From Gammaproteobacteria bacterium (GTDB lineage: Bacteria; Pseudomonadota; Gammaproteobacteria; PS1; Pseudothioglobaceae), in NCBI GenBank assembly GCA_030739975.1, contig JASLYC010000087.1:1-50130 (forward strand): DNA of 50,130 nucleotides. Reading direction: 5' to 3'. Below, piece after piece: positions 32,158 through 50,130 of the stretch (position 1 is its first letter; every line of letters starts with the position of its first letter). The notes under the pieces were generated by a model. That model did not search any database and was not told the origin of the DNA. It saw only the letters and a program-made list of their open reading frames with translations. Made by a program: the position numbers and the translations under genes.

Positions 32158-33804
32158 TTAATGAAGATCTTTCAGCTCTCTTCTAAGAACCTTACCAACA
32201 TTTGATTTTGGTAATTCAGAAATAAATTCCACGAGCTTTGGCACTTTGTAAGCTGTAAGATTGTCTCTACAGAATGCAATTAACTCTTCCGAGCTTAGGT
32301 TTTGCCCCTCATGAACCACAACAAACACCTTAACAACCTCCTGAGATTTTTCATCCTCTACGCCAATACAACCACACTCCATCACCGCAGGGTGTTCACT
32401 AACCACAGCCTCGACTTCATTGGGATAGACATTAAAGCCAGAGACAATAATCATGTCTTTTTTCCGATCTATAATATGGACATAGCCAGCCTCATCAATT
32501 GTGGCAATATCTCCCGAATTAAACCAACCGTTCTCGTCTACACCGGAGTCTTCTATTTTCCAGTAACCTTGCATAACTTGAGGGCCACGAATACATAACT
32601 CACCCGCCTGTCCAATTGGCAAAATTTGACCGCTATCATCTCTAACCTCTACTTCAGTAAAAAGTGCGGCCTTACCAATACTACCAGTAAAAGCTGGAGA
32701 ATCATATTCCATCGAAGTTACTAGAGGGGATGTTTCTGTTAAACCGTAAGCTTGCAGCAATACTGTGCCAGTAACTTTCTCCCACTTTTCTGCAGTAGAA
32801 GGTAGGGTTGCCATGCCGCCTGATAATGCTCCAATAAAGTTACTAAAATCCAGCTTACGAAAATCTTCATTATTGAGTAATGCTTCAAATAAGGTATTCA
32901 CACCAGACATAACATGAAATTTTTGTTTTTTGAGCGTCCCAACAAAAGTTGGTAAATCTCTTGGGTTTGTAATTAATATATTTTTCGCACCATGATAAAA
33001 CAGTGCAAAGGTATGGGCTGTTAGAGCGAAGATGTGATACAAAGGCAAAGGACAAACCACAGTTATCTGGCTATCTGTTGGCTTATCGAACCATTTAGGA
33101 TTAAAGATATGGTATGCCTGAGCTGAGTTAGCCATTAGATTACGATGGGTAAGTATAGCCCCTTTGCTAACACCAGTTGTGCCTCCGGTATATTGCAAGA
33201 ATGCCATATGCTCAATCGGTAAATCAATATCGATAAAGGCCTCTTTAGTGTCGCCTTGCATCACCTTGCCAAAGGCAAGCGAATTGCTTAGGTTAAATTT
33301 TGGCACAAGCTTTTTAATTTTTCTTACAACAAGATTAATAATCTTTCCTTTAAAGCCAAGCAGATCTCCTACAGTGGTAAGAACAATTTTATCAACACTT
33401 GCAAGATTTGCACTAGCAACTACATGACCAGCACCCTCCCAACAAAGTAGTATGTGAGCTTTTGAATCTTTTAATACGTGCTCCAATTCACGCTTAGTAT
33501 AAAGAGGATTAATATTTACAACGGTCATTCCCGCTTTCAGAGCGCCATAAACAATAACAGGATATGCCATCATATTTGGCATCATCACTGCCACTTTGTC
33601 ACCAACGTTGGCATTTTTCGCAAACCATGAAGCAAGGTGGTTCACACGCTCAGCGAGCTGCCCATAACTCATCTCAACATCAAAACTCTCAAAGGCAATC
33701 GAGTCCTTATAACGACCACAGGCCGTGTTAAAAAAGTCTACTAAATTGCTATTATTTTGAAAAATTTCTGTTTCTTCGATACTCTTTGGCACTTTTTTAC
33801 TCAT
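32158..33804 (-). CDS. fadD: Long-chain fatty acid--CoA ligase
   Basis: LQYTGGTTGVSKGAILTHRNL, LLQAYGLTETSPLVT, GWFNSGDIATIDEAGYVHIIDRKKDMIIVSGFNVYPNEVE. Confidence 0.92.
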   Translation of the reverse strand: MSKKVPKSIEETEIFQNNSNLVDFFNTACGRYKDSIAFESFDVEMSYGQLAERVNHLASWFAKNANVGDKVAVMMPNMMAYPVIVYGALKAGMTVVNINPLYTKRELEHVLKDSKAHILLCWEGAGHVVASANLASVDKIVLTTVGDLLGFKGKIINLVVRKIKKLVPKFNLSNSLAFGKVMQGDTKEAFIDIDLPIEHMAFLQYTGGTTGVSKGAILTHRNLMANSAQAYHIFNPKWFDKPTDSQITVVCPLPLYHIFALTAHTFALFYHGAKNILITNPRDLPTFVGTLKKQKFHVMSGVNTLFEALLNNEDFRKLDFSNFIGALSGGMATLPSTAEKWEKVTGTVLLQAYGLTETSPLVTSMEYDSPAFTGSIGKAALFTEVEVRDDSGQILPIGQAGELCIRGPQVMQGYWKIEDSGVDENGWFNSGDIATIDEAGYVHIIDRKKDMIIVSGFNVYPNEVEAVVSEHPAVMECGCIGVEDEKSQEVVKVFVVVHEGQNLSSEELIAFCRDNLTAYKVPKLVEFISELPKSNVGKVLRRELKDLH

Positions 33805-33838: not shown

Positions 33839-34411
33839 TCACTTTAAGATATTTTCAAACGCCTCCTGATAGTAATTATAAACTTCTCCGCCTTCCCTGT
33901 ATGTATAACATGAATTGACAAATTTTTCTTTAATATATGTTAAATTTTCAAGATTAATTTCCTTATCCACTAATGAGTCATTGTGATTAATACTTTGGAA
34001 CGAAAGCGTCGCTGCATAAGCGAGTAGATCATTTATATGACGACAACCTTTTGCTCCACCAAATAACTTCAAGACTCGTTTATTAAAGCCAGGCTTAATA
34101 AACTCTCCTTTTAACAAGTGGCATTTTTCAACAGCTGTAGGGCAAATCAAATAAGGCGATTGATTGATAACAGCTTCAATATCAATAATTTCAAATTCAG
34201 AGGTCAAAGTCAGTCGTATCGCCATTTCATGCAATGGCTCTCCAGCAGCTATATAACCACGGTCCCTGTTATTAAACGTATAGGATTTTTTGTCAGTTAA
34301 AAAAACCTCTATATCCCAAAGGCCGTCCTCTCTGTGGTAGCCGTTACCAATATATCTACGACGGTGCCTAATATCTCTTTTTGCGGGTTTACTTAACATC
34401 TTTTGCTCCAA
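33839..34411 (-). CDS. DUF2889 domain-containing protein
   Basis: RHRRRYIGNGYHREDGLWDIEVFLTD, CPTAVEKCHLLKGEFIKPGF, GGAKGCRHINDLL. Confidence 0.75.
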   Translation of the reverse strand: MEQKMLSKPAKRDIRHRRRYIGNGYHREDGLWDIEVFLTDKKSYTFNNRDRGYIAAGEPLHEMAIRLTLTSEFEIIDIEAVINQSPYLICPTAVEKCHLLKGEFIKPGFNKRVLKLFGGAKGCRHINDLLAYAATLSFQSINHNDSLVDKEINLENLTYIKEKFVNSCYTYREGGEVYNYYQEAFENILK

Positions 34412-34428: not shown

Positions 34429-35619
34429 TTACACTTTCTTAAGAATACCTGCAGCGCCCATTCCTGTACCGATGCACATAGAAATCATGCCGTACTTAAA
34501 ATTGTTTCTCTGCAGCGCAGAAACCAGGGTGGCCGTTCTAATAGCACCGGTTGCACCCAATGGGTGACCTAGTGCAATAGCACCACCTTGCGGATTGACC
34601 TTGGCTCTGTCAAGATTTAATTCATTAATTACCGCCAAAGATTGTGCTGCGAAAGCTTCGTTAAGCTCTATCCAACCGATATCATCAAGGGTTAGTCCGG
34701 CCCTCTTTAGTGCTTTTGGAATCGCTTTAACAGGGCCAATACCCATGATTTCTGCAGGAACACCGGCAACAGCATAAGCAACAAACTCCGCTTTCGGTGT
34801 TAAATTGTATTTCTTAACAGCAGCCTCACTGGCGATTAATACAGCAGCAGCACCGTCTGACATTTGCGAACTTGTTGCTGCCGTGACTGAGCCTTCTTGT
34901 GCAAACACTGTTCTTAATTTAGCTAAAGACTCTATACTGCTCCCTTCTCTTGGACCTTCATCTTGCGAGACAACATTCGTCTTAACGCTGTACTCTTTAG
35001 TCTCTAGTGAATAAACAGATTCAGTTGTTGTAATCGGCACAATCTCATCTGAAAACAAGCCCTCTTTATTGGCCTTAAGAGCCCTTTCATGGCTCTCCAG
35101 GGCAAAAGCATCTTGCTCTTCTCGCGATATCTTGTATTTATTGGCGACTTTTTCAGCAGTCAAACCCATACCGAAAGCAATCGCAATATTTTCATCTTCC
35201 GCTATTACTTTTGGGTTGACCGATGGCTTAAAGCCCATCATTGGTACTGTGCTCATACTCTCTACGCCAGCGGCAATAACCAAGTCGGCTGAGCCGGATT
35301 TGACCATTTCTGCAGCATTTGCTACCGCCTGCAAACCCGAAGCGCAAAAGCGATTGAGTGTGTAGGCAGGTGTTGAGTCCGGCAATCCTGCAAGCAGTGC
35401 TGCAATACGAGCGACATTAAGCCCTTGAGGGCCTTCAGGCATAGCACATCCGACAATAACATCATCGATATTGTTCTTTATTTCGTCAGCATGACTCAGT
35501 GTTGACAAAACACTTTGGATAGAATGAATCAATAGGTCATCCGCTCTGGTTTTAGATAAACTGCCACGCGCCTTGCCAACAGGTGTTCTTTTTGCATCAA
35601 TAATATAAGCTTTTGTCAT
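34429..35619 (-). CDS. fadA: Acetyl-CoA C-acyltransferase (3-ketoacyl-CoA thiolase)
   Basis: NRFCASGLQAVANAAEMVKSG, GGAIALGHPLGATGAI, CIGTGMGAAGIL. Confidence 0.93.
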   Translation of the reverse strand: MTKAYIIDAKRTPVGKARGSLSKTRADDLLIHSIQSVLSTLSHADEIKNNIDDVIVGCAMPEGPQGLNVARIAALLAGLPDSTPAYTLNRFCASGLQAVANAAEMVKSGSADLVIAAGVESMSTVPMMGFKPSVNPKVIAEDENIAIAFGMGLTAEKVANKYKISREEQDAFALESHERALKANKEGLFSDEIVPITTTESVYSLETKEYSVKTNVVSQDEGPREGSSIESLAKLRTVFAQEGSVTAATSSQMSDGAAAVLIASEAAVKKYNLTPKAEFVAYAVAGVPAEIMGIGPVKAIPKALKRAGLTLDDIGWIELNEAFAAQSLAVINELNLDRAKVNPQGGAIALGHPLGATGAIRTATLVSALQRNNFKYGMISMCIGTGMGAAGILKKV

Positions 35620-35631
35620 TCTAATCTCCAA

Positions 35632-38070
35632 TTAATTACGCAGTGGCTTGTTGTTTCTCAACATAAATTCAATTCGATCCTGAGTTTTTTCAGTACTCAG
35701 CAGTTTAATAAAAGCATTCGCCTCAAGATTAAGCATCATTTCTGAATTGACAATTGCATTTTCTTCAACATCTGAACCGGTCATCACTTTTGCTACTTCT
35801 GTCACACATAGTTTGTCATGGTCGGAGATAAATTCACCACCATAAAGATTGGCGACTTGCGCCATTACATTAGCATAACCCGCCTTGCCAACCACTTTAA
35901 AGGTGGCATCTTGAGGTGCTTTAAAGCCAGATTCAAGCATTGCTATTGCCTGTTGCCTGGCAACATAGAGCAACTCATTTGGATTGGCAATAATAATATC
36001 ATCCGCCTTTAAGTAACCCATTTGTTTCGCTTCCAACGCACTTGCTGAGACTTTTGCCATCGCAATTTGCTCAAAGTACTTAGCCAACAATGGGAAAATA
36101 TCATCGCTTTCTTTGTTGGTGTATGCACGTAGTGCCATTTCCTTGGAGCCACAACCCGCGGGCAACACACCAACGCCAACTTCAACCAAACCAATGTATG
36201 AGTTCATCGATGAGACAACACGATTACAATGAAGCAACAACTCGCAACCACCACCAAGTGCCAAACCGTCAACCGCTGCCACAGTCAAAATCTTACCATG
36301 CTTCAAGCGCATCACCATTTGCTGCAGCAGACCCACTATACGTCTGACTGAAGTCAATTCACCCAGTTTTGGCAAACTGGGGTTCATCACTTCAAAGGTT
36401 TTTTTCTTTGCTTTAGCCGCCAAACCCGGTTCTTTTTCAAGAAGTCCTAATTTCACTGCTGAGACAATCTCATATAGGTTTGCACCTGCGCAGAAATGCT
36501 CTTTCTCCTGCCTAAATATCAACGCATGAAAGCCATTTTCTTCCAAATAATCTAGTGCACTGTCAATACCGGTTATAACGCTAGCGCTTAGCACATTCAT
36601 TTTGGTATTAAATGAAATGCTTGCAATACCTTCCCCAAGGTCAATTAATTTAATGCTTTCACTTTCAAGCAAAATATTCTGCTCATGTACCTTCTCTCCA
36701 GCAAGAATTGGTTTGAAGAGTTGTCTTTCATATACAGGATGCGTTGATCTTGGAACATACGTTCCAAGCGTTGGATTAAAAGCACCATCCTCACAATAGA
36801 CGTATGAACAATTCAGTGCCCACTGAGGCAATTCTACCGACCCAAGTGTCTTGCACTTAGCAATATCGCTTAAAAGCATGCCACGAATCTCTTCCCAGCC
36901 CACCAATTGTGCCTGCTCAAAAATCCCACAACCCCAAGCAAATCCAGACCTAAGAGCTATATCAACACAACGAACAGTATCGGCAATATGCTCCAACTGA
37001 TAACAAGAATAATGAAAAACATCTCTATGAACAGACCATAAAAACTGCGCTTGCGGATCATCACATTCTGCCAAAGCCAGTAATGACTTTTCAATATTTC
37101 CGTTTTCTTTTAAAATCTTTTTAACAATCGGACTGATTGTATTATCCGAAAGACGGTAATCAGCAAGACCGGTATCAAATACATAAATATCTTTGCCACG
37201 CTTTTCGTAAATACCTTTTCTAGTTTTGCTACCTAACGCGCCTTGCTCAATCAAACCCTCTACCCAGCTAGGTAATTTGAATAACTCCAACCAAGGATCA
37301 TCTTTAGCATTATCAAAAATATTTTTGACCACGTTTTTCATCACGTCAAGTCCAACAACATCCAGAGTTCTGAATGAAGCACTAGCTGGTCGGCCAATCC
37401 TCTTCCCAGTCAGTGCATCAACAGTATCAGGTGATAGTTCGAAATCCTCAGCGTGCTTTAGAACAGCCATAAAGGAGAATACACCAATTCTGTTTGCAAT
37501 AAACGCAGGATTATCATTTGCGTATACCACCTCTTTACCCAATGCAGAAGTAATAAAACCTTCCGCCTTCTGGAGCAACTTTTCATCACTGTAATTTGTT
37601 CTAATCAGCTCCACTAGGGGTAAATACCTTGGTGGGTTGAAAAAATGTACGCCAAAGATGCGACTTCTCAAAGATTTTGGTGCATGCTCAGCAATAGCAT
37701 TAATAGACAAACCAGAAGTGTTAGTTACCAAAATAGCATCATCCCTAACAAAAGGGCTAATCTTGGTAAACAACTGTTTTTTAATATCTAAATTTTCAAT
37801 TATTGATTCCAAAATAAAATCACAGTCAGACAACAACTCTAGCGAGTCATAAGTGGCTGTTTTGATTGAATCAAGAATCGTTGGAATAGCCAAAGGTGTT
37901 GGCTTGAGCTTTTTCATTGTTTGCAGAGAAGTCTTAAGTACCTCTTCTGACATATCAAACATGGTTACTTCAATGCCTAGATTAGCAAAATGTGCGGCAA
38001 TTTGCCCACCCATAGTGCCAGAACCGAGTACAGCTACCTTACTAAAAGTTTTGTCAAAATACTGTTTCAT
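35632..38070 (-). CDS. Bifunctional 3-hydroxyacyl-CoA dehydrogenase/enoyl-CoA hydratase (FadN/FadB-type, HAD first)
   Basis: VAVLGSGTMGGQIAAHFANLG NAD-binding; FGVHFFNPPRYLPLVELI; C-terminal crotonase FCAGANLYEIV, AVDGLALGGGCELLLHCNRVV. Confidence 0.92.
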   Translation of the reverse strand: MKQYFDKTFSKVAVLGSGTMGGQIAAHFANLGIEVTMFDMSEEVLKTSLQTMKKLKPTPLAIPTILDSIKTATYDSLELLSDCDFILESIIENLDIKKQLFTKISPFVRDDAILVTNTSGLSINAIAEHAPKSLRSRIFGVHFFNPPRYLPLVELIRTNYSDEKLLQKAEGFITSALGKEVVYANDNPAFIANRIGVFSFMAVLKHAEDFELSPDTVDALTGKRIGRPASASFRTLDVVGLDVMKNVVKNIFDNAKDDPWLELFKLPSWVEGLIEQGALGSKTRKGIYEKRGKDIYVFDTGLADYRLSDNTISPIVKKILKENGNIEKSLLALAECDDPQAQFLWSVHRDVFHYSCYQLEHIADTVRCVDIALRSGFAWGCGIFEQAQLVGWEEIRGMLLSDIAKCKTLGSVELPQWALNCSYVYCEDGAFNPTLGTYVPRSTHPVYERQLFKPILAGEKVHEQNILLESESIKLIDLGEGIASISFNTKMNVLSASVITGIDSALDYLEENGFHALIFRQEKEHFCAGANLYEIVSAVKLGLLEKEPGLAAKAKKKTFEVMNPSLPKLGELTSVRRIVGLLQQMVMRLKHGKILTVAAVDGLALGGGCELLLHCNRVVSSMNSYIGLVEVGVGVLPAGCGSKEMALRAYTNKESDDIFPLLAKYFEQIAMAKVSASALEAKQMGYLKADDIIIANPNELLYVARQQAIAMLESGFKAPQDATFKVVGKAGYANVMAQVANLYGGEFISDHDKLCVTEVAKVMTGSDVEENAIVNSEMMLNLEANAFIKLLSTEKTQDRIEFMLRNNKPLRN

Positions 38071-38091
38071 GATTACCCTATTATTTAAAAT

Positions 38092-40560
38092 TTATATGTT
38101 GTTCTTTATCTCAAAGTCATCAACTCTGAGAGACTCTAATACATCCTCATGCCATACAAGCCAATTGTCTTTTTCTTCCACAGTTAGAACTTTGTCGTTA
38201 GTCAACGAGCTTAGCCATCCCTCTAATGACTGACTTGGCTGATACTTATAACCCGCTTTTTTCACTTTTTTCTTAAGTGGCTTAAGTAAGCTTGCTGCCT
38301 TATAACCTTTAAATAGAATTTCGAATTGATGCCCAGGATTGTCTTTCAAATCAGTACAAACACAAGAAGATAAATCACTAATCAGCCAATCAATATCTGC
38401 AACAGACTTTGCTGTGGCAATTATCATTCTATCATCAACTTTTGCCGCCGTAGTCGAGAATGGGAACAACAATAACTTTATGGTCTTTTTAACCAACCAA
38501 TTAACCGGCAAATTATCTAAATTCATACTCATTGCAGAGTCTGCTTCTGCGGCCAACTGCAACATTGACAAGCGCAAAACTTCGCTCACCTTTTTATTAT
38601 TTATGAACTTCTCCTCATAGAGTTTCAGGCAAGCGCTCATTTCATACATTGCTGCAATTGTATCGGCAAATCTGCCAGAAACCATTTCCTTGCGTTTTAA
38701 CGATCCAGTAAGAATAAATAAAGAAATATCACTCATTGCGGCAAACTTAGCAGACAACACAGATAAATTACGATAGTAAGTTTTAGTGTTAGAATCGCCA
38801 TACGTTTTGGCAAATCGTCCGCGCGACCATGAGAATAATACTGCTCTGGCGAAGTTATGCAAAAAGGAACTGATATGATTTGTTAGTGCTTTGTCAAAAG
38901 TGACAATACCGTTACCGCTCTTATCGTAAAGCGCATCTATTTCATCGAACATTGTCGCATGACAACGAATCAGACCCTGCCCAAAAACCATGAGACTTCT
39001 GGTTAAAATATTAGCACCTTCAACGGTAATACCAACCGGTGCTGAAGCGTAGACATTGGCAACATAATTTCTAGGACCTTGCATCACTGCTCGGCCGCCA
39101 TGAACATCCATCGCATCGATAGCTGATTGCTGCATCAATGTAGTGTTACGATATTTAACAATTGCAGAAATAATTGAAGGCTTATGGCCTGCATCAAGCG
39201 CCCAAGTAGAGAGATTAATATTGGCAGTTGCACGATAAGCATTGGTTGCCAATGTGGCTAGTTTTTCTTGAATGCCTTCTAGGTTGGCAATCGGCAAACC
39301 AAATTGTTCTCTAATTTGTGTATAGGCACTGGTAGTAAGCAGCATCGCTTGAGCCGCCGCTGTACCGGAAACCGGCAATGAAATACCACGACCAACACTC
39401 AAGCACTCCATTAGCATTCTCCAACCGTGGCCGATCATTTGATCTCCACCAATAATCCAATCCATTGGGATAAAGACATCCTTGCCAAATATTGGGCCAT
39501 TTTGAAACGGTTCACCAATAGGCTTGTGGCGAGTACCAATGCTAACACCTGCAGTGTTTCGTGGAATCAATGCACAAGTAATACCAAGATCTGTTTGCCC
39601 AAAAAGTGGATGATCTTTATCTAGCAAATTTTCTGGATCGAAGGCCTTGAATGCCAATCCAATAACGGTTGCAACTGGGGCAAGTGTAATATAACGCTTC
39701 TCCCAATTTACCCTCATTCCCAAAACTTTTTTGCCTTCATATTCACCATAACAGACAATGCCATTATCAACCAAAGATCCTGCATCTGAGCCAGCAACGG
39801 TAGAAGTTAGGGCAAAGCATGGGATTTCCTTACCTGCAGATAAGCGAGGCAAATACTGATCTTTTTGTGCGTCCGTACCATAATTTTGTAGTAACTCGCC
39901 CGGTCCAAGTGAGTTTGGCACCATTACAGAAATAGCTAAAACTGAAGCGGCAGAAGCAACTTGACCAACTATCATCGCATGAGCGTAATGAGAGAAACCT
40001 TTGCCGCCATATTGTTTAGAAATATTGATTGCCCAAAAACCGTTATCGGCAATATATTGCCAAACCTCTTTTGGTAAGTCATTCTCAGTAGAAATCTCAT
40101 ATGAATTAACCATAGAACATAATGTTTTAACTTCATTATCAATAAAGCTTTGCTCTTCTTTGGTGAGTTTCATCGCTTTAAGGTTTGATAACCTGCTCCA
40201 ATCAGGATTACCTTGAAAAAGTTCCGCATCCCACCAAACATCGCCAGCCTCTAAGGCAATCCTTTCTGTTTCACCAATTGGCGGCAACGTTTTACGCATC
40301 AACCCAAACAACGGCTTGGTGAGCAGAATTTTTCTAATTCCAGGGATAATATAAAAACCAAGAAAAAACAAAATACCCATTAGTATCTTCAAGCTTATTA
40401 GTTCAGTTTCGAGAGCAAGTGGAACAATAAAAATCGCACTCAAAAACCAAAGGTATGAAAGCTTTATTTGAGTTTTAGCCAATAACAATAGAGTCAATGC
40501 AAAAACTACAATCAACGTTGAGTATGGATTTTGGCTTAGATAATTTAAACATTCATTCAT
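38092..40560 (-). CDS. fadE: Acyl-CoA dehydrogenase (FadE-type, DUF1974 C-terminus)
   Basis: N-terminal TM; FALTSTVAGSDAGSL, MDVHGGRAVMQGPRNYVANVYASAPVGITVEGANILTRSLMVFGQG. Confidence 0.93.
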   Translation of the reverse strand: MNECLNYLSQNPYSTLIVVFALTLLLLAKTQIKLSYLWFLSAIFIVPLALETELISLKILMGILFFLGFYIIPGIRKILLTKPLFGLMRKTLPPIGETERIALEAGDVWWDAELFQGNPDWSRLSNLKAMKLTKEEQSFIDNEVKTLCSMVNSYEISTENDLPKEVWQYIADNGFWAINISKQYGGKGFSHYAHAMIVGQVASAASVLAISVMVPNSLGPGELLQNYGTDAQKDQYLPRLSAGKEIPCFALTSTVAGSDAGSLVDNGIVCYGEYEGKKVLGMRVNWEKRYITLAPVATVIGLAFKAFDPENLLDKDHPLFGQTDLGITCALIPRNTAGVSIGTRHKPIGEPFQNGPIFGKDVFIPMDWIIGGDQMIGHGWRMLMECLSVGRGISLPVSGTAAAQAMLLTTSAYTQIREQFGLPIANLEGIQEKLATLATNAYRATANINLSTWALDAGHKPSIISAIVKYRNTTLMQQSAIDAMDVHGGRAVMQGPRNYVANVYASAPVGITVEGANILTRSLMVFGQGLIRCHATMFDEIDALYDKSGNGIVTFDKALTNHISSFLHNFARAVLFSWSRGRFAKTYGDSNTKTYYRNLSVLSAKFAAMSDISLFILTGSLKRKEMVSGRFADTIAAMYEMSACLKLYEEKFINNKKVSEVLRLSMLQLAAEADSAMSMNLDNLPVNWLVKKTIKLLLFPFSTTAAKVDDRMIIATAKSVADIDWLISDLSSCVCTDLKDNPGHQFEILFKGYKAASLLKPLKKKVKKAGYKYQPSQSLEGWLSSLTNDKVLTVEEKDNWLVWHEDVLESLRVDDFEIKNNI

Positions 40561-40593
40561 TGCGATTTGCCTTTATTTAATTGCTAGACACAT

Positions 40594-40655
40594 ATTATAT
40601 TCGTCCATATCAATACTATAATTGATACAATATTACTAAAAGTTAACACTTTATT
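40594..40655 (-). promoter_or_regulatory. fadE operon promoter/operator: TATAAT (40594-40599, minus), half-site GTATCAAT (40621-40628), half-site GTGTTAAC (40642-40649)
   Basis: Conserved 39-bp block 40617-40655 matches 43249-43287 at 36/39; identical spacing to -10 box. Confidence 0.7.
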
Positions 40656-40712
40656 AAGTACACATTTTATAGAAAAGTGATGATGACATCAAAAAGGTAA
40701 AGCTTCAAAGTA

Positions 40713-41099
40713 TCACTCGCCTTGAAGCTGGGCAAGCATTTTCTTTTGAACTAGAAGAATAGCCTTAAGTGGTCGTAACATAACTTTAAAGTCAATAATT
40801 TTACCCTCATCATTCCAAGTAATGACATCCACACCGTTAACGTACAGCCCATCAATTTCAGCTTCAAATTCAAGCACGGCTTCATTGCCGCTAACTATCT
40901 CTCGTACATAAGTGAAAGAATACTGACTAAATAGATGAAAGGCCGCACTCAAATACTGGGATACGAGCACCTTACCTGCCTGAGGTGTGTGCATAACTGG
41001 CGAATGAAACACAGCATCATCTGCCAACAGATTGTTTAAATCCTCTAGCCTTTGTGTTTCAAGAATACGGTGCCAAACTTCTAGTGTGTTTATTATCAT
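40713..41099 (-). CDS. NTF2-like/SnoaL-fold protein
   Basis: WHRILETQRLEDLNNLLADDAVFHSPV, ITWNDEGKIIDFKVMLRPLKA. Confidence 0.75.
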   Translation of the reverse strand: MIINTLEVWHRILETQRLEDLNNLLADDAVFHSPVMHTPQAGKVLVSQYLSAAFHLFSQYSFTYVREIVSGNEAVLEFEAEIDGLYVNGVDVITWNDEGKIIDFKVMLRPLKAILLVQKKMLAQLQGE

Positions 41100-41120
41100 G
41101 TTAAGTTTCCTGTGCTTTAT

Positions 41121-43163
41121 TTAAAACGAGGCTGCCAATCTAGAGCCCTGGTTTATTGCTCGTTTTGCATCAAGCTCGGCAGCAACGTCAGCACCGCCAA
41201 TTAAATGTGAAGAAATTCCATTTTTCTCCAATTCAGCATGTAAATCGCGGAACGGCACTTGTCCAGTACAAAGAACTATAGTATCTACTGGTAAAACATG
41301 TGTATTACCATCAACCAAGTAATGCAAGCCTTCATCATCAATTTTGTTATATTTGACGCCAGGTACCATATTAATTTTTTTTGTTTTTAAACTGGCACGA
41401 TGGATCCAACCAGTAGTCTTGCCAAGCTCTGCCCCCAGTCGCGTCGTCTTTCTCTGAAGCAATGTGATTTCTCTGGTTAGTGTTGGCGTATCGGGCTTGA
41501 TACCAATAAGACCACCTCTCACTCTATTTTTTGAATCTATACCCCATTTATTCAAAAATGCTCCTACATCAATACTTGACTTGTTACCATCATGAGATAA
41601 ATACTCACAAATATCAAAGCCAATGCCGCCAGCACCGATCACTGCAACTCGCTCACCTACTTCCTTTTTGTCTCTCAAAACATCTAAATAAGATAGGACT
41701 TTTGGATGATCTTGTCCAGATATTCCAGGCTCTCTTGGTAGAACACCAGTTGCAATTACCACCTCGTCAAAATGACCAGCCTTTACGATTGCCATATCAA
41801 CTTTTTGACCAAGCACTACGTTAACATTTAATACCTCTAAACGTCTAGAGAAGTAACGCAAGGTTTCATAGAACTCTTCCTTTCCTGGAATTTGTTTTGC
41901 TATATTGAACTGTCCACCTATTTCTTTTGAGGCCTCGAATAAAGTCACCTGATGTCCGCATTCAGCAGCGACAGTTGCACAAGCTAGACCAGCTGGACCA
42001 GCTCCCACAACAGCGATACGTTTTGAGCTTATTTTTCTCTCATAGATTAAATCTAGTTCATGACATGCTTGTGGGTTGACTAAACAGCTGCTGCGCTTTC
42101 GATTAAATACATGGTCTAAGCATGCTTGATTGCAGCCAATGCAGGTGTTGATTTCATCTGCCCTGCCCTCAATGGCTTTACTAACAAAATTAGGATCAGC
42201 TAAAAAAGGCCGCGCCATTGAAACCATGTCGGCATCGCCTCTTGCCAATACAGACTCGGCAACTTCTGGTGTATTAATCCGATTACTAGCGATTAGAGGC
42301 ACTGAAACTTCACCACGCAACTTGGCCGTAACCCAAGTAAAGCACCCCCTAGGAACCATGGTTGCAATCGTTGGAATTCTTGCCTCGTGCCAGCCTATAC
42401 CAGTATTAATAATGCTCACTCCAGCTTCTTCTAAAGCTTTTGCTAGTATAACAACCTCTTCCCAAGTACTGCCTTTTTCAAGCAAATCCAGCATTGAGAG
42501 TCGGAAAATAAGAATGAAATCTGGACCGACAACTGCTCGGGTCTGCCTAACAATTTTCAAGGCCATTCGGATACGGTTCTCAAACAAACCGCCCCACTCA
42601 TCTGTACGTTCGTTGGTATGCTTTGCGATAAACTGATGAATGAAGTATCCTTCAGAGCCCATAATCTCTACACCATCGTAACCAGCCTGCTGCGCCAAAC
42701 TAGCACAATTAACGTAATCCTCGATCGATCTCAAAACACCTTGGTTAGATAATGCTTTTGGCTTAAAAGGCGTAATTGGTGATTTAATCGCAGAAGCAGA
42801 AACAACAAATGGATGATACCCATATCGCCCTGTGTGCAGAATTTGCATACAAATTAACCCTCCTTCTGCGTGAACCGCATCGGTGATAATACGATGTTTT
42901 TTTACTTCTTTTTTGTTGGATAATTTTGCAGAGAGAAGCATGGCCCGGCCCACTCTGTTTGGTGCGATTCCCCCAGTAACAATAAGTCCAGCACCGCCAC
43001 GAGCTCTTTGCGAATAAAAAGCTGCCATATTTTCAAAACCATCGGCTTCCTCTTCCATGCCGGTATGCATGGACCCCATTAATACCCTATTCTGTAGAGT
43101 AATTTTGCCAACCCTTAAAGGCTTCAAAAGGTTAGGGTACAGCGTATCACTTACAGTTGTCAT
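41121..43163 (-). CDS. fadH: 2,4-dienoyl-CoA reductase (NADPH), FMN/Fe-S/FAD
   Basis: OYE-like barrel, CIGCNQACLDHVFNRKRSSCLVNP Fe-S motif, IAVVGAGPAGLACATVAAECGHQVTLFE. Confidence 0.92.
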   Translation of the reverse strand: MTTVSDTLYPNLLKPLRVGKITLQNRVLMGSMHTGMEEEADGFENMAAFYSQRARGGAGLIVTGGIAPNRVGRAMLLSAKLSNKKEVKKHRIITDAVHAEGGLICMQILHTGRYGYHPFVVSASAIKSPITPFKPKALSNQGVLRSIEDYVNCASLAQQAGYDGVEIMGSEGYFIHQFIAKHTNERTDEWGGLFENRIRMALKIVRQTRAVVGPDFILIFRLSMLDLLEKGSTWEEVVILAKALEEAGVSIINTGIGWHEARIPTIATMVPRGCFTWVTAKLRGEVSVPLIASNRINTPEVAESVLARGDADMVSMARPFLADPNFVSKAIEGRADEINTCIGCNQACLDHVFNRKRSSCLVNPQACHELDLIYERKISSKRIAVVGAGPAGLACATVAAECGHQVTLFEASKEIGGQFNIAKQIPGKEEFYETLRYFSRRLEVLNVNVVLGQKVDMAIVKAGHFDEVVIATGVLPREPGISGQDHPKVLSYLDVLRDKKEVGERVAVIGAGGIGFDICEYLSHDGNKSSIDVGAFLNKWGIDSKNRVRGGLIGIKPDTPTLTREITLLQRKTTRLGAELGKTTGWIHRASLKTKKINMVPGVKYNKIDDEGLHYLVDGNTHVLPVDTIVLCTGQVPFRDLHAELEKNGISSHLIGGADVAAELDAKRAINQGSRLAASF

Positions 43164-43225
43164 TTATATCTCCTAATCAATCATTACTAACTGCTCGAAC
43201 AACAGTTATTTTTATTATGAAAGTA

Positions 43226-43287
43226 ATTATAGCTTTTCACTGTTGATATATAATTAACACAATATTACTAATAGTTAACACTTTATT
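43226..43287 (-). promoter_or_regulatory. fadH promoter/operator: TATAAT (43226-43231, minus), half-site GTGTTAAT (43253-43260), half-site GTGTTAAC (43274-43281)
   Basis: Same architecture as 40594-40655. Confidence 0.7.
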
Positions 43288-43340
43288 TATAGAGTCCTCT
43301 GACAATCTTACTAAATGAATACTCTAGCAACATCTAACCA

Positions 43341-44339
43341 ATGAACGTTCATAGCACTGTTTGGCGATCTATCTCTCGTCTTCAATACCTCTATCCTAAT
43401 GAAGTAAATCAAATATGCCAAAGAATAGGCATTTCTCCAAGCCTTTTGGCCGGCCACAATCTTACATTACCACTCACTTTATTCTTAAACTTCTTTATTG
43501 AGGCAGAAGATATTTTTGACGACGATCTATTTTCCATCAAATACGCGCGCATGGCACAAATACGGCCAAATTACTCAGAGATTTTAGGGATGATTTCACT
43601 CTATTCTCCTAATTTAATCGAAAGCTTTAATTTGGTGAATTCCTATATTAACCTTGAATTAGATGGTATCGATATCAGCTTGATTCAAAAAACCAACGTT
43701 GTTGATATTCGCTTTGTGGCCAATGCGGCTATTGAGCACGCTAGCTTATATGAAAACTTATGCATGTCAATCTTTGCCACTTTTATTAAATCGCTGCACC
43801 ATCCAATAGATAAACTAACAACAAAAACAACAACCAAACAAGCCACTAGTGTCGTTCGTTCTTTATTTCATTGCCCTATTCAATTTAAGGCTAACCACAC
43901 GGCGATAATACTCACGAACGAAGTATCACTTAAACAAAACCCAACCGCCAATCCAAAATTGATAAGTTTGTTGGAAATTATGGCAAAAGAAAAAATTACC
44001 CAAAAAGCGAACGAAGGCAACATAGTTAACAGACTTGAAGATATTTATAATAGTTATGAAGACCGCTACAGTAATATCAACATTACCGAAACATCAAATT
44101 TATTAGGCCTTAGTATCAACACTCTGCGTAGAGAGCTAAGTAAACGAAAGACTACATTTCGTCAAACACTAAATAATTTCAAGCTAAAAAAAGCCAAATC
44201 AATGCTAGCCAGCAACTATTCAGTTAAAAGAGTGGCGTATTCTCTTGGTTATACTGAGCCTTCAGCATTTGTACGCTGGTTTATTAATCAGGCCAAACAA
44301 ACGCCTAAAGAATACAAAAAAGAAGTAACACGCCAATAA
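43341..44339 (+). CDS. AraC-family transcriptional regulator (Arabinose_bd-like N-terminus plus HTH_18)
   Basis: TETSNLLGLSINTLRRELSKRKTTFRQTLNNFKLKKAKSMLASNYSVKRVAYSLGYTEPSAFVRWFINQAKQTPKEYK. Confidence 0.92.
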   Translation: MNVHSTVWRSISRLQYLYPNEVNQICQRIGISPSLLAGHNLTLPLTLFLNFFIEAEDIFDDDLFSIKYARMAQIRPNYSEILGMISLYSPNLIESFNLVNSYINLELDGIDISLIQKTNVVDIRFVANAAIEHASLYENLCMSIFATFIKSLHHPIDKLTTKTTTKQATSVVRSLFHCPIQFKANHTAIILTNEVSLKQNPTANPKLISLLEIMAKEKITQKANEGNIVNRLEDIYNSYEDRYSNINITETSNLLGLSINTLRRELSKRKTTFRQTLNNFKLKKAKSMLASNYSVKRVAYSLGYTEPSAFVRWFINQAKQTPKEYKKEVTRQ

Positions 44340-49873: not shown

Positions 49874-50130
49874 TTAACCTTCAACTCTAATCAAATAAGA
49901 TACTTTGTTAATCATGCCGCGTACCTCTGGAGTGTCTACTAATTCAACTGTTTGATTTATTCTTTTTAAACCTAGACCACTTATTGTTGCACGATGTGAT
50001 GGTATACGGCCATTAAAACTCTTTAACAATGTAACAGTGAGAGTTTTTTTATTAGCGGCAGCCTTCTTAACAGCTTCCTTTTTTGGGGCTGCTTTTTTAA
50101 CAGCTTCCTTTTTTGGGGCTACTTTTTTAA
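49874..50130 (-). CDS. rpmD: 50S ribosomal protein L30 with N-terminal K/A/P-rich repeat extension (5' partial at window end)
   Basis: Hand translation: ...[84 protein letters not shown]; location directly upstream of rplO. Confidence 0.92.
50071..50130. repeat. 30-bp tandem repeat, two copies visible (29/30 identical), plus a degenerate third unit at 50041-50070
   Basis: cagcttccttttttggggctgcttttttaa / cagcttccttttttggggctacttttttaa. Confidence 0.95.

Follow-up and report, generated by a model that had tools for sequence, protein, structure and literature searches.

The window analysed here, a stretch of 50,130 nucleotides, is the whole of one contig from a metagenome-assembled genome (1.51 Mb, 87% complete) with close relatives listed under the names Gammaproteobacteria SZUA-1055 and Candidatus Thioglobus sp. 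It contains two minus-strand units for fatty-acid degradation. One begins with a flavin oxidoreductase of 680 aa (41121–43163), followed as second gene by a SnoaL-like protein of 128 aa (40713–41099). The sequence-only reading had named the oxidoreductase fadH; its Oxidored_FMN and Pyr_redox_2 domains bear out a FadH-like protein, although no NCBIfam model passes its cut-off for the name itself. The other unit consists of fadE, an acyl-CoA dehydrogenase (38092–40560; NF007000 and NF009586 above cut-off), a fadB-type fusion of 3-hydroxyacyl-CoA dehydrogenase and enoyl-CoA hydratase (35632–38070), fadA, an acetyl-CoA C-acyltransferase (34429–35631; NF006553 above cut-off), a DUF2889 protein (33839–34411) whose place in this operon is kept in relatives, and a FadD-type long-chain acyl-CoA ligase (32158–33804).

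Divergent from fadH, on the plus strand, lies the gene for an AraC-family regulator of 332 aa (43341–44339). The protein has the C-terminal double helix-turn-helix and separate N-terminal domain of the AraC/XylS family, with HTH_18 scoring 56.2 bits (cut-off 33.6) and PF12625 (Arabinose_bd) 37.4 bits (cut-off 27.6). Its structure model is of moderate quality overall (pLDDT 72, pTM 0.48) and better in the helix-turn-helix region (pLDDT about 90), which matches the DNA-binding domain of GadX; the recognition regions are conserved across homologues of the regulator while much of the remainder diverges. The modelled N-terminal half also weakly matches H-NOX domains. We set aside a haem-based reading of these fold matches and put them down to a common topology of the modelled N-terminal half, which PF12625 may share.

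Upstream of each fad unit lies a 39-bp element on the minus strand, at 43249–43287 beside araC for the fadH-like unit and at 40617–40655 for fadE, and the two are identical at 36 of 39 bases. Each is built of two half-sites whose starts lie 21 bp apart. The distal half-site is AATAAAGTGTTAAC in both copies (43274–43287 and 40642–40655), and the proximal one is AATATTGTGTTAAT before the fadH-like unit (43253–43266) and AATATTGTATCAAT before fadE (40621–40634). A TATAAT hexamer follows 17 bp past each element (43226–43231 and 40594–40599), beginning 21 nt past the proximal 8-mer in both copies. The sequence-only reading had reported same-orientation elements alike at 36 of 39 bases upstream of both units, a 21-bp half-site repeat and a TATAAT 21 nt further on, and all of these proved exact on recomputation.

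The two elements form the best dispersed same-strand pair of 39-mers in the 50-kb window, the next pair scoring 31; an equal score is reached only by a tandem repeat at 50061/50091. The contig end there (50061–50130) is an imperfect 30-bp tandem repeat with copies 36/39 alike. At up to three mismatches, a 33-nt pattern matches only the two operator places in the window and none of 100 shuffles, and the full 39-bp element occurs at only these two places in its own 1.51-Mb genome, with no match in the reversed control. The motif is therefore not scattered over unrelated regions, an outcome that the sequence-only reading had named as telling against it. The genome scan it had proposed fared less well with the degenerate motif GTGTTAAC-N13-GTNTNAAT, which we rejected as a search tool: the third perfect match (C63:12154) falls inside an 811-aa coding region, and two mismatches yield 23 matches against 28 in the reversed control; it is far less specific than the 39-bp element.

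Comparison across loci defines the conserved unit as AATAAARTGTTAAY-N7-AATATTRTGTTAAY, two 14-bp half-sites (AATAnnRTGTTAAY) at a 21-bp pitch. The pitch of the geometry first proposed thus stands, and its 8-bp half-site gives way to one of 14 bp. Over 23 loci, the operator carries 1.59 bits of information per base and its flanks 0.40–0.42; the self-match at lag 21 (0.63) is the highest among lags 5–30, and the half-sites of 35 sites share a mean of 9.9 of 14 bases, compared with 5.2 after shuffling. The distance from the element to the −10 is 17 bp in 17/17 sites of the window's lineage, and in a distant clade the −10 (TATACT) lies 16 bp past the element in nearly all sites; the claim of exactly 21 nt to TATAAT consequently holds in the window's lineage and is one base too long for the distant clade.

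Neither of the two promoters has a −35 box; the place where one would lie is partly covered by the proximal half-site. Sigma-70 promoter prediction gave nothing above shuffle expectation at either window site, which is consistent with the missing −35 and agrees with the earlier remark that no good −35 is present. Direct repeats of about 15 bp at a pitch of about 21 bp, a poor −35 that they overlap and a fixed distance to the −10 are all found here; as judged from the DNA sequence, this combination is the layout of AraC/XylS class-II activation. One relative (G010, L062:10655-11500) has about 0.85 kb between the operator and its −10 and fadE, either an insertion or an assembly error (the genome is 6% contaminated), and this segment holds a truncated ORF that resembles trimethylamine methyltransferase, as named by its sequence.

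It is informative to consider these elements in light of their distribution within the Thioglobus/Pseudothioglobus group, for which we compared 83 genomes, 23 with araC (the window's and 22 relatives) and 60 without. The full-length regulator is present in 22/82 of the other family genomes. The order-level sample was identical to the family sample, the order search adding no regulator relatives, and none was found outside the family at E ≤ 1e-25 among 369 sampled genomes of the class. In loci long enough to show it, araC is divergent to the fad operon, usually ordered fadE-fadB-fadA-DUF2889-fadD. In the window, its genus mate and a trio of genomes from another genus (G015, G029 and G031), araC is separated from the fadE/fadB block by the fadH unit; in most other relatives fadE directly adjoins araC. 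All 22 relatives that have araC carry an operator next to it, ahead of fadE or fadH, even where AraC identity falls to 42%, and fadH-type loci that retain fadE have two operator copies, one per unit.

A sequence-only operator profile (R1), trained on the araC-adjacent sites of the araC genomes, scores at least 30 bits in 23/23 genomes with araC; in 60/60 without the gene it stays at or below 19.6 bits. This linkage partly reflects shared ancestry, because the site adjoins the gene in every genome, and R1 had these very sites in its training set; only the extra sites and the operator decay described below are independent. A matrix trained without the window's sites finds both of them, at 47.2 and 42.5 bits, and its next best match scores 0.8. 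The motif is thus conserved with araC across relatives (23/23 with the gene against 0/60 without it above 19.6 bits), the outcome opposite to the one first named as damaging. Further profile matches in the window's own genome (15.7 bits or less) we regard as noise, since araC-less genomes give matches of the same size; the highest-scoring one (C65:7077) has housekeeping genes around it. No operator was found at the malate synthase (C26) of that genome, and no third target was found in it at 87% completeness.

FadE orthologues of at least 66% identity and araC co-occur in 22/24 genomes. One exception (G020) has its fadE cut by a contig end. The other (G008, 99% complete) has kept fadE and lost araC, with putA in its place, and the 19.6-bit site that tops the araC-less genomes is its decayed fadE operator, the decay being worse in the proximal half-site (9/14 matching) than in the distal one (12/14). 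In a member of the window's own genus (G048), a 49-codon ORF (L055:9195-9344) fuses the start of the SnoaL-like gene in frame to the end of fadE. It is a deletion scar: the fadE promoter has gone together with most of the gene, so that fadBA now stand behind the fadH operator; this locus is also without FadD and DUF2889.

In most of the compared genomes the araC-fad block is found close to one shared locus (L17/GatB-Yqey), and its history appears to differ from that of the genomes that carry it. For Lon, the window is 82–83% identical to the trio G015, G029 and G031, and the trio is 87–90% identical to other members of its own genus. The reverse holds for FadB (89–90% between the window and members of the trio, about 75% between the trio and its own genus) and for AraC (80% as against 43–53%). 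From this reversal, the block of araC, operators and fad genes (34429–44339 of the window was compared) has most likely moved between the two genera.

The same three genomes carry operators beyond the fad locus. These sites, which lie outside the R1 training set, have E values of 2e-6 to 6e-5 for the stronger ones, and 6/6 have a −10-like hexamer at exactly 17 bp. They precede malate synthase G in G015 and G031, a lipase-like hydrolase resembling BipL in G029 (where 17 nt of the site recur without change, in direct orientation, at a 21-bp pitch), a TRAP dctP operon in G031 and a GntR/acyl-CoA-synthetase unit in G015 (contig C36); a weaker one (E 0.09) precedes a lipase resembling PAF-acetylhydrolase in G029. 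Isocitrate lyase lies near an extra site in one of these genomes. The promoter of the lipase gene (L118:3631-3740) matches a sister genome's fadE promoter at 54/62 positions, through operator, spacer and −10, and, judging from this match, is a case of promoter capture by near copying of the fadE promoter. In G015, about 77 nt including the operator are common to the malate synthase and GntR-unit promoters (L114:6588-6626 and L113:6532-6570). This shared stretch stops at a contig end (C44) and may reflect promoter duplication, strain mixing or an assembly effect; the C36 site is kept with the caveat that assembly or strain mixing may be involved.

We conclude that the 39-bp elements are very probably operators of the protein encoded at 43341–44339, acting by class-II activation on both fad units and probably in response to a fatty acid or CoA ester. 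That this protein directly controls both units, as the sequence-only reading had proposed, is strongly supported by comparative genomics; its binding to the elements, the activation, the sensing of fatty acids and the feedback on araC are steps that we infer. In this model, two regulator monomers would each bind a 14-bp half-site, both on the same face of the helix and at the 21-bp pitch. Because the proximal monomer would overlap the −35 position of a promoter with a perfect −10 and no −35, it could contact sigma-70 and recruit RNA polymerase, and the bound regulator would co-activate the fadH-snoaL and fadE-fadB-fadA-DUF2889-fadD units. The operator lies roughly 20–70 bp from the araC start codon in the loci examined, making autoregulation of araC through the operator likely from its position. 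The trigger would probably be a fatty acid or its CoA ester acting on the N-terminal domain. The nature of the targets (beta-oxidation, the glyoxylate shunt and lipases) points to such a ligand, and the suggestion is loosely supported, by analogy and through the structure model, by the resemblance that the N-terminal half bears to VirS and by the fact that ToxT and Rns bind fatty acids.

FadR, PsrA and FadP act mainly as repressors of beta-oxidation genes. It is worth considering that the same protein and operators might work in the opposite sense, the bound protein blocking the −35 region until freed by acyl-CoA, as with FadR and PsrA. The overlap of the operator with the −35 position would suit such blocking, and the known proteobacterial regulators of beta-oxidation, FadR, PsrA and FadP, are of GntR or TetR type (PMC5343134). 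However, a perfect −10 without a −35 suits a promoter that depends on an activator, and the half-site keeps its distance from the −10 constant, to the single base, throughout each clade, which contact with polymerase demands and blocking does not; we therefore think repression unlikely. The C-terminal domain of FadR (PF07840) was absent from 10 genomes, the window's included, in a search that detected the E. coli positive control, and palindromes of PsrA type (GAAAC-N4-GTTTC) are no commoner than chance in the window.

The operators might also serve a regulator encoded elsewhere, with araC a mere neighbour, and some relatives do have other AraC-type helix-turn-helix proteins (weak C-terminal matches). 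Against this stand the co-occurrence of operator and araC (23/23 against 0/60), the decay of the operator where araC was lost, and the probable joint transfer of araC, operators and fad genes, and we regard it as very improbable. Even smaller credence goes to the idea that the pair in the window is no more than a duplicated promoter and means nothing for regulation. The copied lipase promoter of G029, spacer included, shows that near-copies of this kind arise; yet the two copies here have diverged in the spacer that leads to the −10 and are still alike at 36/39 bases in the operator, and over 23 loci the operator alone is conserved above its flanks. Duplication accounts for the origin of the operators and not for their maintenance. 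Class-II activation by the AraC-family protein is thus the reading we retain, and on balance we lean towards a broader view built upon it: that a fatty-acid-responsive activator of the AraC family has replaced FadR, PsrA or FadP in the Thioglobus/Pseudothioglobus group as part of a mobile cassette of regulator, operators and fad operon that travels between genera, and that in one lineage genes for the glyoxylate shunt, for lipases and for transport were drawn under its control, at least once through a copy of the fadE promoter.

An AraC-type regulator would here fill a role usually held by FadR, PsrA or FadP, in a group of abundant marine bacteria related to sulfur oxidisers for which the control of fatty-acid use seems to be undescribed; we found nothing on that subject, and no AraC regulator of a fadEBA operon, in the open-licence literature. 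The regulator is defined, the operator is precisely delimited and the targets are few, and all can be put to the test in a heterologous host with no need to grow the organism itself. The locus also illustrates clearly how regulator, operator and pathway can travel as one, and how an operator erodes once its regulator has gone.

Among known systems, the FadR, PsrA and FadP regulons share the metabolic role of this locus, coordinated control of beta-oxidation. Those regulators belong to the GntR or TetR families and bind inverted repeats, whereas here an AraC-family protein is paired with a direct repeat. A compendium of proteobacterial regulons lists FadR (GntR) and PsrA and FadP (TetR) for fatty-acid degradation, and the word AraC is absent from it; it also describes control of aceBA by PsrA in Shewanella, glyoxylate-shunt genes joining beta-oxidation control in some lineages (PMC5343134). 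Among AraC-family proteins, CdpR of Pseudomonas aeruginosa (5chh) is the best full-length structural match by E-value and also a sequence match in the PDB, but identity in the structural alignment is 17% and its known role differs. VirS of Mycobacterium tuberculosis regulates mymA, an operon for fatty-acid modification with induction on lipid media (PMC9044949). In the N-terminal half, the model resembles VirS more closely than any other structure matched (8rcw; TM-score 0.72 by target and 0.47 by query, from a model of moderate confidence); the PDB search reported no sequence match to it, the taxon is unrelated and the mymA enzymes are not fadE, fadB or fadA. The activity of ToxT, Rns and HilD, likewise of the AraC family, is governed by fatty acids that bind close to the N-terminal domain (PMC8329261), and the helix-turn-helix half of ToxT and Rns is similar in sequence to that of the window's regulator in the PDB search. 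These three control virulence genes and are inhibited by fatty acids. The N-terminal domain of the window's regulator is PF12625 and, so far as can be judged from the model, differs from the ToxT/Rns fold. Closest in arrangement is XylS at Pm, where two monomers occupy two 15-bp direct repeats, each composed of box A, 6 bp and box B, at a site overlapping that of the polymerase (PMC5481539). Both systems have direct repeats for two monomers, a polymerase-overlapping site and a catabolic operon for carboxylic acids, binding being predicted here; they differ in their boxes (AATAAA and TGTTAA here, TGCA and GGTA for XylS), in the N-terminal domain and in the target, beta-oxidation as opposed to toluate degradation. 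The type of switch is therefore well known, and its use as a regulator of beta-oxidation in this lineage appears to be new.
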